From Sphingomonadales bacterium (GTDB lineage: Bacteria > Pseudomonadota > Alphaproteobacteria > Sphingomonadales > Sphingomonadaceae): a DNA stretch of 5,741 nucleotides. The notes under the pieces are model-generated. The model had not been told where the DNA came from and made no database searches. It saw nothing but the letters and a program-made list of their open reading frames with translations. The position numbers and the translations under genes are program-made. Shown in pieces: positions 2,813 to 5,741 of the stretch; position 1 is the first letter of the stretch; every line of letters begins with the position of its first letter. The stretch covers positions 1 through 5,741 of the forward strand of contig JAIXPM010000266.1 in NCBI GenBank assembly GCA_027486275.1, in the 5' to 3' direction.

Positions 2813-3520
2813 ATGTTCGGCACAGCCACGACAGGCACCAGCCACGATATCCAGGCCATTCCCGGCCTGTGGCGCGACGCGCACGGTGAGGCGGCGGCCT
2901 TGTCGAGCCGGGGGCGGGACCATGCCGCCTTGCGATTCGCCATGCTGAAGGATCGCAAGATCGTGCTGATGGACCGGCTGGGCTGGGATCTGCAATCGCC
3001 CGATGGCCTGCATGAGCTGGACGAATATGATGGCGACGACACGCTCTACCTGATCGTTCATCAGCCCGAAACCGGCCGGCACCTGGGCTCGGTGCGGCTG
3101 CTGCCCTCCACCGGCGCGCATCTGCTGGGCGACAAGTTCGCGCATCTGTGCGCCGATGGTGTGCCGGTGGGCCCCGATGTGTGGGAGATCACCCGGCTGG
3201 TCACTGCGCCTGGTCTGTCGCGGGCCGAGGCACTTCAGGTGCGCCGACAATTGGCAATTGCCCTGCTAGAACATGCACTTGCAAACAGAATTCAATATTA
3301 TATCATGGTCACACATCTGCCGTGGTTGCCGAGCTTGCTGTCCATCGGCTGGGATGCTGAACCACTGGGCCTGCCGCACGGAGAGGGCGTGAATGCCGTC
3401 GCCGCGCTGCGGATCCATATTGATGAGACTACTTTGCAGCGCCTGCGCGCAGCCTGGGCGATTGCCCAGCCTGTGCTGGTGCCGCCCGCTATCGGCCGGG
3501 AGAATGAACAGGCGTTTTGA
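2813..3520 (+). CDS. luxI: LuxI-family acyl-homoserine-lactone (AHL) synthase
   Basis: The protein has 235 residues. Family members make N-acyl-homoserine lactone quorum-sensing signals in the cytoplasm from S-adenosylmethionine and an acyl carrier (usually acyl-ACP). Aligned by eye to Vibrio fischeri LuxI, nearly all the family's invariant residues are present: R48 and W58 in RKIVLMDRLGW (LuxI R25, W35), E68, D70 and D73 in HELDEYDG (E44, D46, D49), R95 in SVRLLPST (R70), F109 in DKFAHL (F84), and E125 and R128 in WEITRLV (E101, R104). The position of LuxI F29 is L52. The N-terminus is about 23 residues longer than in LuxI. The start is set by AGGGAG 6 nt upstream. Part of the C-terminal half (3247-3306) is strikingly AT-rich against its surroundings. 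No luxR gene is visible. The downstream neighbours are surface-glycan genes on the same strand. Family assignment is strong; acyl-chain specificity cannot be read. Confidence 0.9.
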   Translation: MFGTATTGTSHDIQAIPGLWRDAHGEAAALSSRGRDHAALRFAMLKDRKIVLMDRLGWDLQSPDGLHELDEYDGDDTLYLIVHQPETGRHLGSVRLLPSTGAHLLGDKFAHLCADGVPVGPDVWEITRLVTAPGLSRAEALQVRRQLAIALLEHALANRIQYYIMVTHLPWLPSLLSIGWDAEPLGLPHGEGVNAVAALRIHIDETTLQRLRAAWAIAQPVLVPPAIGRENEQAF

Positions 3521-3546
3521 CCCTGCGTCTGTCGCTTTCCTGCCGA

Positions 3547-3621
3547 GGATGCCCCGGCCTGCTGAATCCACCTGCAAACGGCCCTCCCCGTGCGCAGAAT
3601 TTGGTGCAGGCCGGGGCATCC
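3547..3621. repeat. Perfect 16-bp inverted repeat with 43-nt loop between the luxI and nfrB-like genes
   Basis: The arm GGATGCCCCGGCCTGC at 3547-3562 is the exact reverse complement of 3606-3621. The loop spans 3563-3605. The stem is very GC-rich and would be stable in RNA, but no T-run follows, so it is not an ordinary intrinsic terminator. A second pairing is possible: CCTGCA at 3571-3576, inside the loop, is complementary to TGCAGG at 3605-3610, which overlaps the second arm. The element fills most of the 123-nt gap between the two genes. It could act as an RNA switch, a processing or stability element, or a dyad-shaped protein site. The repeat is certain; the function is unknown. Confidence 0.75.
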
Positions 3622-3643
3622 ACCCTGTAATGAACCTCCGGCC

Positions 3644-5002
3644 ATGATGCAGCCTGAACTGCTTGCCCTGTGGCATGTCGCGCTGGCAGAGGCCTTGTTG
3701 CTGGTGGCTTTGCTGGTGACCATCAACGGGCTGGATGATCTGGCCATCGATGTGCTGTGGCTGATGATGCCGCGCCACCGCCGGCAGCCACAACCGCTGC
3801 CGCCCGCACCGCCACCAGCACGTTTTGCCATACTGATCCCGGCTTGGGATGAATCGGCGGTGATCGGTGCCATGCTGCAGCGCCTGCTGGCCACGCTGGA
3901 CTGGCCGGATTATGCCGTGTTCGTTGGCCTTTATCCCAATGATCCCAAAGGTCAGGCGGCGGTGGCGGCGCTCGACGACCCGCGGCTGCACGTGGTAGTT
4001 GGTGCTGCACCCGGCCCCACCACCAAGGCCGATTGCCTGAACAGCTTGTGGCGGGCGGTTTTGGCAGAGGAGGCGGCCAGCGGCCGGGCGTTTGCGGCCA
4101 TCGTGCTGCACGATGCCGAAGATCTGGTGCACGCCTGCGAACTGCAGGTGTTTGCCGCCCATCTGCCCAAATATGCCATGGTGCAACTGCCGGTTCTGCC
4201 GCTGCCCGATGCTGGCAGCCCATTGATTTCCGGTCATTATATCGATGAATTTGCAGAAGCGCATGCCAAGGATCTGCTGGTGCGGCAGTGGCTGGACGCG
4301 GCGGTGCCGGCGGCCGGCGTGGGCGTTGCCATCGATCGGGCCATGATGGGCCGCATTGCCGATGCCCGCGACGGCGCCCCCTTTGATGCCGCCAGCCTGA
4401 CCGAGGATTATGAACTGGGCCAGCATGTTCACGCACTGGGTGGGCGCGGTCGGCTGGTGTGGGTGCTGGCCGAAGGCCAGCCGGTGGCAACGCGGGAGCA
4501 TTTTCCGGCCAGCTTTGATGCGGCCGTGCGGCAGAAAGCGCGCTGGCTCACCGGTATCGCGCTGGCCGGCTGGGATCGGATCGGGTGGCGCGGTGGGCTG
4601 GTCAATCGCTGGATGCTGCTGCGCGATCGCAAGGCGCCGTTGATGGCGCTGCTGACGCTGGCTGCCTATGGCATTGCCTTGCTGCTCGGCATCGATAGCC
4701 TGCTGCGGCTGGCGTTGCCAGCGGCGGCGCGGCTGCCGCCAGTGGCGGGCGACGTCACGCGGGCGCTGCTGTGGCTGAACTGGACACTGCTGTGCTGGCG
4801 GCTGCTGGTGCGGGCGCTGTTCACCTTGCGCGTGCATGACCTGAACCAAGCGATATTGACGCCGCCACGTGCGCTGATCGGCAATTTCATCAACGCCATG
4901 GCGGCACTGCGCGCACTGTCGCGCTATGCCCAGGCGGTGCGAACAGGCCGGCGCCTCGCGTGGGACAAGACGATCCACCGTTTCCCCGGCTTTTCTCCAT
5001 GA
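3644..5002 (+). CDS. nfrB: NfrB-like inner-membrane family 2 glycosyltransferase (short form)
   Basis: The protein has 452 residues. A hydrophobic N-terminal segment (about 8-28) is followed by a GT-A glycosyltransferase domain (about 61-310). It opens with FAILIPAWDE and carries the acidic metal/nucleotide-sugar motif HDAED at 156-160, the TED catalytic motif at 253-255 and the QxxRW motif QKARW at 297-301. Two or more membrane segments follow (about 331-358 and 370-395). The end carries WDKTIHRFP at 440-448, a block I recognise from NfrB proteins. In E. coli, NfrB polymerises the surface glycan that phage N4 uses, together with outer-membrane NfrA, and a C-terminal domain binds c-di-GMP. 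Here the protein stops four residues after WDKTIHRFP, so that extension is missing. Starts at 3644 or 3647 are near-equivalent; no clear ribosome-binding site is seen, and a GTG at 3590 is a weaker alternative. The stop overlaps the next start as ATGA. Confidence 0.88.
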   Translation: MMQPELLALWHVALAEALLLVALLVTINGLDDLAIDVLWLMMPRHRRQPQPLPPAPPPARFAILIPAWDESAVIGAMLQRLLATLDWPDYAVFVGLYPNDPKGQAAVAALDDPRLHVVVGAAPGPTTKADCLNSLWRAVLAEEAASGRAFAAIVLHDAEDLVHACELQVFAAHLPKYAMVQLPVLPLPDAGSPLISGHYIDEFAEAHAKDLLVRQWLDAAVPAAGVGVAIDRAMMGRIADARDGAPFDAASLTEDYELGQHVHALGGRGRLVWVLAEGQPVATREHFPASFDAAVRQKARWLTGIALAGWDRIGWRGGLVNRWMLLRDRKAPLMALLTLAAYGIALLLGIDSLLRLALPAAARLPPVAGDVTRALLWLNWTLLCWRLLVRALFTLRVHDLNQAILTPPRALIGNFINAMAALRALSRYAQAVRTGRRLAWDKTIHRFPGFSP

Positions 5003-5741
5003 AGGCTGTGGGCCTGACTGGCCGGCCGCTGCGGGCCTTCACCGGGCTGGGGCTGCTGCTGGCACTGTGGATCGGCATGCGGCTGCCGGCGATGCAGCAC
5101 GATCTGCAGGCGCTGGCACGGCTGGCGACGGGTACAGCCCGGCCGCCGCCGCGACGAACTCCGGCTCCGATCATGACGGCGCAGTTGTCGCCTTTGCCGG
5201 CCGCGTTGCAGCGGCCGGTGACGCCGCCCTTGCTGGCGCTGCCCGCGGCGCTGCGGCTGCCACCTACGGCCAGCCAATCCCTGCTACAGCTCACGCCGCA
5301 ACAGCCAGCCCGATTGCAGCCGGCAACACCGCCATCGGTACATCTCGCCGTTCCGCCCGCCAGCGTGCCGCCATCTGATTCGGCTTTCACCCTGGCAAGT
5401 GCTGCCTATGATCGCTCGCGCGCTGGTCAGCGCCGCCAGGCCGCCGCGCTGTTCGATGCGGCGCTGGCCCTGCAGCCGGGCAATCGCCAATGGCGGGCTG
5501 AACGTTCTGCGCTGGGCCGGCGCTGGCAGTTGGGCAGCTTTGCCCTGCTGCGCGATAGCGGGCCGCTGCCCAATCAGCCGGGCAATGGCTTGCCCGGTGC
5601 CGCCGCGTCACCCGTGCTGGGCGGCGGGCAGGTGGGGGGCAGCCTCGCCTTTGTCACCGATCCCTATGCGCGCCGGCCGCTGGCACTGGTGGCGCGGACC
5701 AATGTCGCTGCCGATCCAAAGGGCGTGCGCGGTGAGACCGC
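4999..5741 (+). CDS. NfrA-like glycan export / phage-adsorption protein, N-terminal part (runs off right edge)
   Basis: The open frame of 247 full codons runs to the window end without a stop. Residues 13-30 form a hydrophobic segment (FTGLGLLLALWIGM core), a signal peptide or membrane anchor with no clear cleavage site. Residues about 48-127 are a low-complexity stretch rich in Pro, Ala, Leu and Gln, probably a flexible periplasmic linker. Residues about 134-165 look like one TPR-type helix pair (AYDRSRAG, AAALFDAALALQPGN). From about 205, VLGGGQVGGSLAF followed by DPYARRPLALVART resembles the start of the C-terminal domain of phage N4 adsorption protein NfrA. The gene begins inside the stop of the nfrB-like gene (ATGA at 4999-5002) with no Shine-Dalgarno, so translation is probably coupled. 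E. coli NfrA is about 990 residues with a long TPR region; this one reaches the NfrA_C-like part after roughly 200. The remainder is unseen, so its outer-membrane fate is inferred. Confidence 0.75.
   Translation, partial: MKAVGLTGRPLRAFTGLGLLLALWIGMRLPAMQHDLQALARLATGTARPPPRRTPAPIMTAQLSPLPAALQRPVTPPLLALPAALRLPPTASQSLLQLTPQQPARLQPATPPSVHLAVPPASVPPSDSAFTLASAAYDRSRAGQRRQAAALFDAALALQPGNRQWRAERSALGRRWQLGSFALLRDSGPLPNQPGNGLPGAAASPVLGGGQVGGSLAFVTDPYARRPLALVARTNVAADPKGVRGET

Follow-up and report, generated by a model that had tools for sequence, protein, structure and literature searches.

The window analysed here, a 5,741-nucleotide (nt) stretch of the Sphingomonadales contig JAIXPM010000266.1, carries a homologue of luxI, the gene family encoding acyl-homoserine lactone (AHL) synthases, followed by nfrB-like and nfrA-like genes of a glycan system. 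Between luxI and nfrB of freshwater sphingomonads lies what its sequence pattern identifies as a previously unlisted structured RNA (approximately positions 3511–3621 of the window), which a sequence-only reading of the window had missed. This RNA is probably a cis-acting 5' leader of nfrBA, with luxI as an old but dispensable upstream neighbour. The RNA leader was a stronger result than the gene neighbourhood on which that reading had centred: its fold and position are well supported, and its function is our interpretation. The nearest named relatives of the window are Sandarakinorhabdus species, and genome-wide statements refer to the genomes of relatives, not to the source genome of the window (loci carry L numbers and genomes G numbers).

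Fold and conservation of the RNA

One scan of genome contigs yielded 35 luxI loci. In 19 of these, nfrB lay directly 3' of luxI; one contig ended right after luxI (L005), and no nfrB was found within the fetched flank of 15. The adjacency seen in the window is thus not confined to one strain. The 19 luxI-nfrB loci include members of Sandarakinorhabdus, Polymorphobacter, and Thermaurantiacus, and LuxI identity among them falls as low as approximately 45% (L020).

The 123-base gap between luxI and nfrB in the window holds a perfect 16-bp inverted repeat, with stem P2 perfectly paired up to 3562/3606. The relatives showed a common pattern, in which a short hairpin (P1) with the loop UUUUGACCCUG is followed by the long stem P2 around a terminal ACGG-CCCUCC-CCGU hairpin (P3). 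The window and each of the 19 luxI-nfrB loci had the exact 14-nt P3 core, which was absent from the 16 other loci of the scan; it differed by one or two bases in three of five loci lacking luxI. In six loci P1 is longer and its loop reads UUUCCGACCCUG. At L001, L003, L004, and L006–L010, as in the window, luxI has its stop codon inside the P1 loop motif.

Two alignments were compared with 500 shuffles each. The first comprised 18 of 20 sequences (the window and the 19 loci), L002 and L003 being omitted as near copies. It was paired in 97.4% of its cells and showed 10 pairs with two-sided changes; no shuffle reached its paired percentage, two-sided changes, or covariation score, 20 reached its number of further pair types, and slid controls were 37–54% paired. 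The second comprised 19 of 28 sense-strand matches, five from genomes without luxI, and omitted L002, L003, the long-P1 loci L016, L017, L020, L021, L022, and L164, and the divergent L206. It was 98.3% paired with six pairs changed on both sides (reached by one shuffle), its percentage and covariation score were reached by no shuffle, and its further pair types were reached by 72. Within this alignment, the P1 helix was paired in 100% of cells, with one of its four pairs changed on both sides, and the P1 loop UGACCC was invariant in all 19 rows (CGACCC in the long-P1 loci). The stems covary beyond the shuffled and slid controls, and the element is a conserved structured RNA. The RNA of the window had a folding z score of -4.6.

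The 16 G-U cells against 6 A-C cells make the plus strand the likelier RNA strand and disfavour an RNA on the opposite strand; 8 of the 36 RNA-model matches at the loci were antisense, all of them weak. In searches against Rfam, neither the window nor the RNA of six further loci gave a match at gathering score, the best sub-threshold match being mir-504 (25.3 bits against a cut-off of 57). The intergenic RNA likewise matched none of the c-di-GMP (cyclic di-GMP) riboswitch families of Rfam at gathering score. Carriage of the RNA by phages was considered and rejected, since none of the 66 viral stretches containing the 14-nt core gave the RNA model an E value better than 0.017. Separately, a cobalamin riboswitch lies close to the cluster in Thermaurantiacus tibetensis (L022, 8689–8892).

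Distribution of the RNA relative to nfrB and luxI

In the genus of G005 (24 genomes), nfrB was present in all 24 genomes and luxI in 12. An RNA match at E < 1e-6 was found in 17 of the 24, each adjoining nfrB on its strand; these were the 12 genomes with luxI and five without it (G409, G410, G414, G415, and G420), in which the RNA lay 17–53 nt ahead of the nfrB match. G416, also without luxI, had a weak match (E = 0.034) directly upstream of nfrB, and six genomes (G344, G412, G413, G418, G423, and G424) had neither luxI nor the RNA. On the nfrB tree, the RNA was kept without luxI on several separate branches. The idea of a luxI 3' untranslated-region element was rejected, because five genomes carry the RNA without luxI.

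Beyond the genus, strict filters retained the RNA at E ≤ 0.01 in 8 of 346 genomes of the order, all eight at nfrB, and in 1 of 385 genomes of the class, which was G007 itself. The RNA was absent from 19 luxI loci in other contexts (L018, L019, L023–L035, and L182–L185), from eight nfrB loci of other sphingomonads (L166–L173), and from seven loci that belong to the clade or neighbour it (L162, L163, L202, L203, L208, L212, and L213). Overall, the RNA tracks nfrB more closely than it tracks luxI. As a side observation, the nfrB gene of L163 (G115), where the RNA is missing, has a strong Shine-Dalgarno sequence.

History of the luxI-nfrB neighbourhood

Among the 346 genomes of the order, nfrB relatives were found in 274 (E ≤ 1e-20) and luxI relatives in 107 (E ≤ 1e-8). 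The two lay within 1 kb of each other in at least nine genomes (G001, G002, G003, G005, G007, G009, G115, G240, and G245), a count that is a lower bound. The thymidylate synthase gene thyA, which lies on the other side of luxI in the window, faces nfrB directly in all 12 luxI-less genomes of the genus and, with a thyA 46% identical, in G267 (L168); thyA-nfrB neighbours without luxI were seen at L162, L168, L200–L206, L208, L209, L212, and L213. Because thyA and nfrB adjoin without luxI elsewhere, luxI was either inserted between them or lost from there.

A single origin of the nfrB-linked luxI genes was compatible with the supported branches of the luxI tree; the best tree needs three changes, and a single change suffices on only 1% of 200 bootstrap trees. 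Seven changes each are required for luxI and for the RNA on the nfrB tree. In six luxI-less loci bearing the RNA, no luxI remnant was recognised, and only an element on the thyA side matched clearly; losses of luxI are therefore read from the tree. Under the history that we propose, luxI would have settled between thyA and the leader early in the lineage and would then have been lost repeatedly, rather than gained repeatedly, while the leader remained.

LuxI and its probable LuxR partner

The luxI product matched PF00765 with 59.1 bits (cut-off 24). When it was aligned over the core to the solved AHL synthase 3p2f, 9 of the 10 signature residues usually called invariant in LuxI proteins matched (R48, W58, E68, D70, D73, R95, F109, E125, and R128). 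The tenth position (F28) is Leu52 in the window, and Leu also occurs there in the closest relatives. The dN/dS ratio (nonsynonymous to synonymous substitution rates) of luxI was 0.11–0.25 against nine relatives, and LuxI is under purifying selection. The description of a LuxI-family gene thus held. Carriage of this LuxI on plasmids was rejected, as every one of 485 matching records was below 60% identity.

Two side observations concern luxI genes. An AT-rich patch within luxI (3266–3310; 60-base GC fraction of 0.48 against 0.64 for the whole gene) contains a sigma-70-like match at 3279–3306; the patch is common to L001–L003 and absent from L004, L006, and L010. L019, a proteobacterial contig with another context, carries two luxI homologues approximately 2 kb apart (994–1527 and 3450–3980).

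In the luxI-nfrB genomes G001–G009, one strong LuxR-type gene each was found, on a contig other than that of luxI, nfrB, and the RNA. Within the genus, all 12 luxI genomes had an ortholog of this LuxR (at least 61% identical to that of G001), with one copy broken (G002), as did 1 of 12 luxI-less genomes (G420, 66%). Other better LuxR matches, in the luxI-less G410, G414, and G416, were 25–31% identical, which is no closer than two Novosphingobium LuxRs (33–35%); the remaining matches in luxI-less genomes were weak (22–27 bits). The LuxI-LuxR co-occurrence gave a Fisher p value of 9.6e-6 with kinship ignored, and tree-aware pairs along supported branches (2 together, 0 apart, 1 without difference) were too few to test. 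This pattern suggests a LuxI-LuxR pair that is split over the chromosome, in which LuxI would most likely partner with the LuxR encoded elsewhere.

The type strain Sandarakinorhabdus limnophila DSM 17366 (L003, L176) has a frame-shifted nfrB, a shortened and out-of-frame nfrA, a LuxR gene with an in-frame stop, and one P2 pair lost through a mismatch, with luxI intact. This is a hint that LuxR and nfrBA may belong together, coming from one strain in which assembly error is possible.

The occurrence of luxI without an adjacent luxR is known in sphingomonads as luxI solos (Gan et al. 2015, PMC4288048). Our locus shares with these the lack of luxR beside luxI and the bacterial group, and differs in that its luxI comes together with a LuxR ortholog located elsewhere in the genome. 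The main text of PMC4288048 mentions neither "Sandara-" nor "thymidylate".

The NfrB-like and NfrA-like proteins

The nfrB product (452 amino acids) scored 473.4 bits against NF011307, the equivalog model for a short glycosyltransferase (cut-off 431), and 339 bits against the Escherichia coli NfrB model NF008411, below its cut-off of 1170. PF13641 and PF13632 matched above cut-off, and the translation contains TED and QxxRW (QKARW) motifs. The nfrA-like ATG at 4999 overlaps the nfrB stop codon (ATGA, 4999–5002), so that an NfrB-like gene followed on the same strand by an overlapping NfrA-like gene was borne out. Full-length NfrA-like relatives have 377–452 amino acids and a predicted 12-strand C-terminal barrel resembling outer-membrane channels. 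NfrA_C (PF13283) matched three of six full-length relatives, all below threshold (best 17.7 bits against 25, L011), and gave no match in the truncated copy of the window. Sequence searches at the limits used returned no solved-structure relatives of either protein.

The system resembles the E. coli NfrB/NfrA glycan system (the phage N4 receptor, NGR) in that the gene for a membrane glycosyltransferase overlaps the next gene, which encodes an outer-membrane barrel partner (PMC8669469, PMC8669472). In E. coli NfrB, the tested construct of the c-di-GMP-binding MshEN domain comprised residues 414–745, and the domain was reported in the large majority of NfrB homologs (1,705 of 1,841; PMC8669469). 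The window NfrB, in contrast, stops at 452 amino acids and had no Pfam match to MshEN at E values up to 1, and it falls short of NF008411; the parallel to c-di-GMP control in E. coli that the sequence-only reading had drawn therefore does not carry over. The window system also differs in its shorter NfrA partner with sub-threshold NfrA_C matches and in having an RNA, and often luxI, upstream.

Proposed function and alternative explanations

Shine-Dalgarno pairing 5' of nfrB had a median of -1.8 kcal/mol at loci with the RNA (n = 26) and -8.0 kcal/mol at loci without it (n = 19; p = 1.4e-4, with start codons assigned by rule, kinship ignored, and L003 and L012 excluded for a damaged or cut nfrB). 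The nfrB gene of the window has no Shine-Dalgarno sequence, as is usual at loci with the RNA. The weak Shine-Dalgarno sequences and the fixed place just upstream of nfrB argue for a cis-acting leader that would act on nfrB translation or read-through. Such a leader, lying within the nfrB mRNA, would fold as P1 followed by the long P2 ending in P3, and its C-rich loops GACCCUG and CCCUCC would form a conserved recognition surface. Most likely, a trans factor (protein, RNA, or ligand) would bind these loops and thereby control nfrB translation or read-through. The luxI gene would probably be read on the same transcript.

Several observations weigh against a leader of nfrBA. L205 has the RNA together with a strong Shine-Dalgarno candidate, and L013, L014, L022, and L210 have moderate ones, while L162 and L202, RNA-less members of the same clade, likewise lack a good Shine-Dalgarno sequence. 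G115 (L163), a genome outside the genus, carries luxI and nfrB matches at a distance of 126 nt but no RNA, so the RNA is dispensable. The RNA was associated with luxI within the genus (12 of 12 against 5 of 12; Fisher p = 0.0046, kinship ignored), independent pairs along supported branches averaging 1.5 together, 0 apart, and 1.5 without difference. Weak RNA matches away from nfrB in G417, G006, and G411 (E = 0.03–0.08) and in G351, G245, and G267 (E = 0.19–0.81) were taken as chance. The window has four terminator-like sites, all outside 3600–3650, leaving no terminator after P2. When 22 loci were searched for loop pairing with a site in cis, neither the 900 nt upstream nor the 1500 nt downstream held a conserved complement, so that the loop partner is expected in trans. 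Finally, sequence alone cannot separate a leader from a free small RNA (sRNA).

Such an sRNA is the main rival to the leader reading, although we consider it unlikely. It would be cut or terminated from the luxI-nfrB transcript, and its C-rich loops would pair with the Shine-Dalgarno regions of other mRNAs; the presence of two C-rich loops, single-stranded and nearly invariant, on stems that covary, the complementarity of CCCUCC to the Shine-Dalgarno-like GGAGGG, and the lack of a conserved cis partner are all consistent with this. Precedents are described for UpsM of Rhodobacter, an sRNA made within an operon leader (PMC5089854), and for CcsR1-4 and PcrX, which are processed from 3' untranslated regions (PMC8307010). 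UpsM, from the leader of the dcw cluster in Rhodobacteraceae, is also a lineage-restricted structured RNA of an envelope operon leader in Alphaproteobacteria; by its description, with which our RNA was compared, it ends in a Rho-independent terminator (PMC5089854), whereas none was seen after the window RNA. The missing terminator speaks against an UpsM-like origin and against release of an sRNA, genomes with an RNA match at E < 1e-6 have a single one, invariably at nfrB, and the weakness of the Shine-Dalgarno sequences of nfrB indicates a local role.

The sequence-only reading had linked signal and glycan, and a quorum model in which LuxI-made AHL controls nfrBA, so that the glycan and possibly phage adsorption track cell density, appears quite improbable to us. 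The same-strand adjacency is real and recurrent, the LuxR ortholog on another contig follows luxI in the genus, and DSM 17366 combines a damaged LuxR gene with damage to both nfrB and nfrA. However, the complete retention of nfrB where half of the genus lacks luxI weakens an obligatory link, and nfrB persists without luxI and without that LuxR ortholog class in 11 of 24 genomes. Moreover, no luxR was seen beside luxI, DSM 17366 is a single strain with an intact luxI, and the independent luxI-LuxR pairs are too few. The quorum-glycan link is weak and not obligatory. Conversely, luxI may be a passive neighbour that landed between thyA and nfrBA with its own signals and no functional tie to the glycan genes, which is possible but in our view somewhat doubtful. 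The direct facing of thyA and nfrB in G267 and the luxI-less half of the genus, in all of which nfrB is kept, fits such a neighbour; against it, luxI has kept its place down to the LuxI divergence of L020, and its stop codon lies within the P1 loop motif, through which a transcript of luxI would enter the leader.

Returning to the leader of nfrBA, a bolder version is put forward tentatively: an undescribed class of leader RNA would control the glycan operon, would have replaced the nfrB Shine-Dalgarno sequence, and would add a layer of control to a synthase without a c-di-GMP domain; luxI would share this transcript, its stop codon falling in the first loop. A literature search, covering mostly titles and the beginnings of abstracts, found no publication on this locus. 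If true, a glycan export system that in E. coli is known to provide a phage receptor would gain a new lineage-restricted regulatory RNA, and a possible mode of control would become apparent for systems whose synthase has no c-di-GMP domain. Natural genomes with and without luxI, and with and without the RNA, make the signal-glycan question directly testable.

Gene layout of the window

The features of the window are listed in Table 1.

Table 1. Genes and RNA elements of the 5,741-nt window
Feature	Position	Strand	Evidence and remarks
M19 dipeptidase	142–1305	minus	
folA	1316–1816	minus	
thyA (thymidylate synthase)	1813–2736	minus	PF00303, 339.7 bits; divergent neighbour, luxI between thyA and nfrB
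luxI homologue (AHL synthase family)	2813–3520	plus	PF00765, solved relatives, dN/dS
RNA hairpin P1	3511–3529	plus	Predicted stem 3511–3514/3526–3529, loop UUUUGACCCUG; luxI stop 3518–3520 within loop
RNA stem P2	3547–3621	plus	Arms 3547–3557/3611–3621 conserved; inverted repeat and covariation
RNA terminal hairpin P3	3574–3595	plus	ACGG 3578–3581, loop CCCUCC 3582–3587, CCGU 3588–3591
Short nfrB-like glycosyltransferase	3644–5002	plus	NF011307 above cut-off; start codon 22 nt past P2
nfrA-like outer-membrane partner, N-terminal part	4999–5741	plus	ATGA overlap; truncated by window end; full-length relatives, predicted barrel

On the minus strand, thyA and folA share an ATGA overlap (1813–1816), the same as that of nfrB and nfrA on the plus strand. 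A palindrome-like conserved element lies shortly before the thyA start (2737–2760); it reads CCCCTTTTCAGGGATAT in Sandarakinorhabdus and CCCCGATCGGGGATAT in Thermaurantiacus-like genomes, and it is perhaps a control site of thyA.

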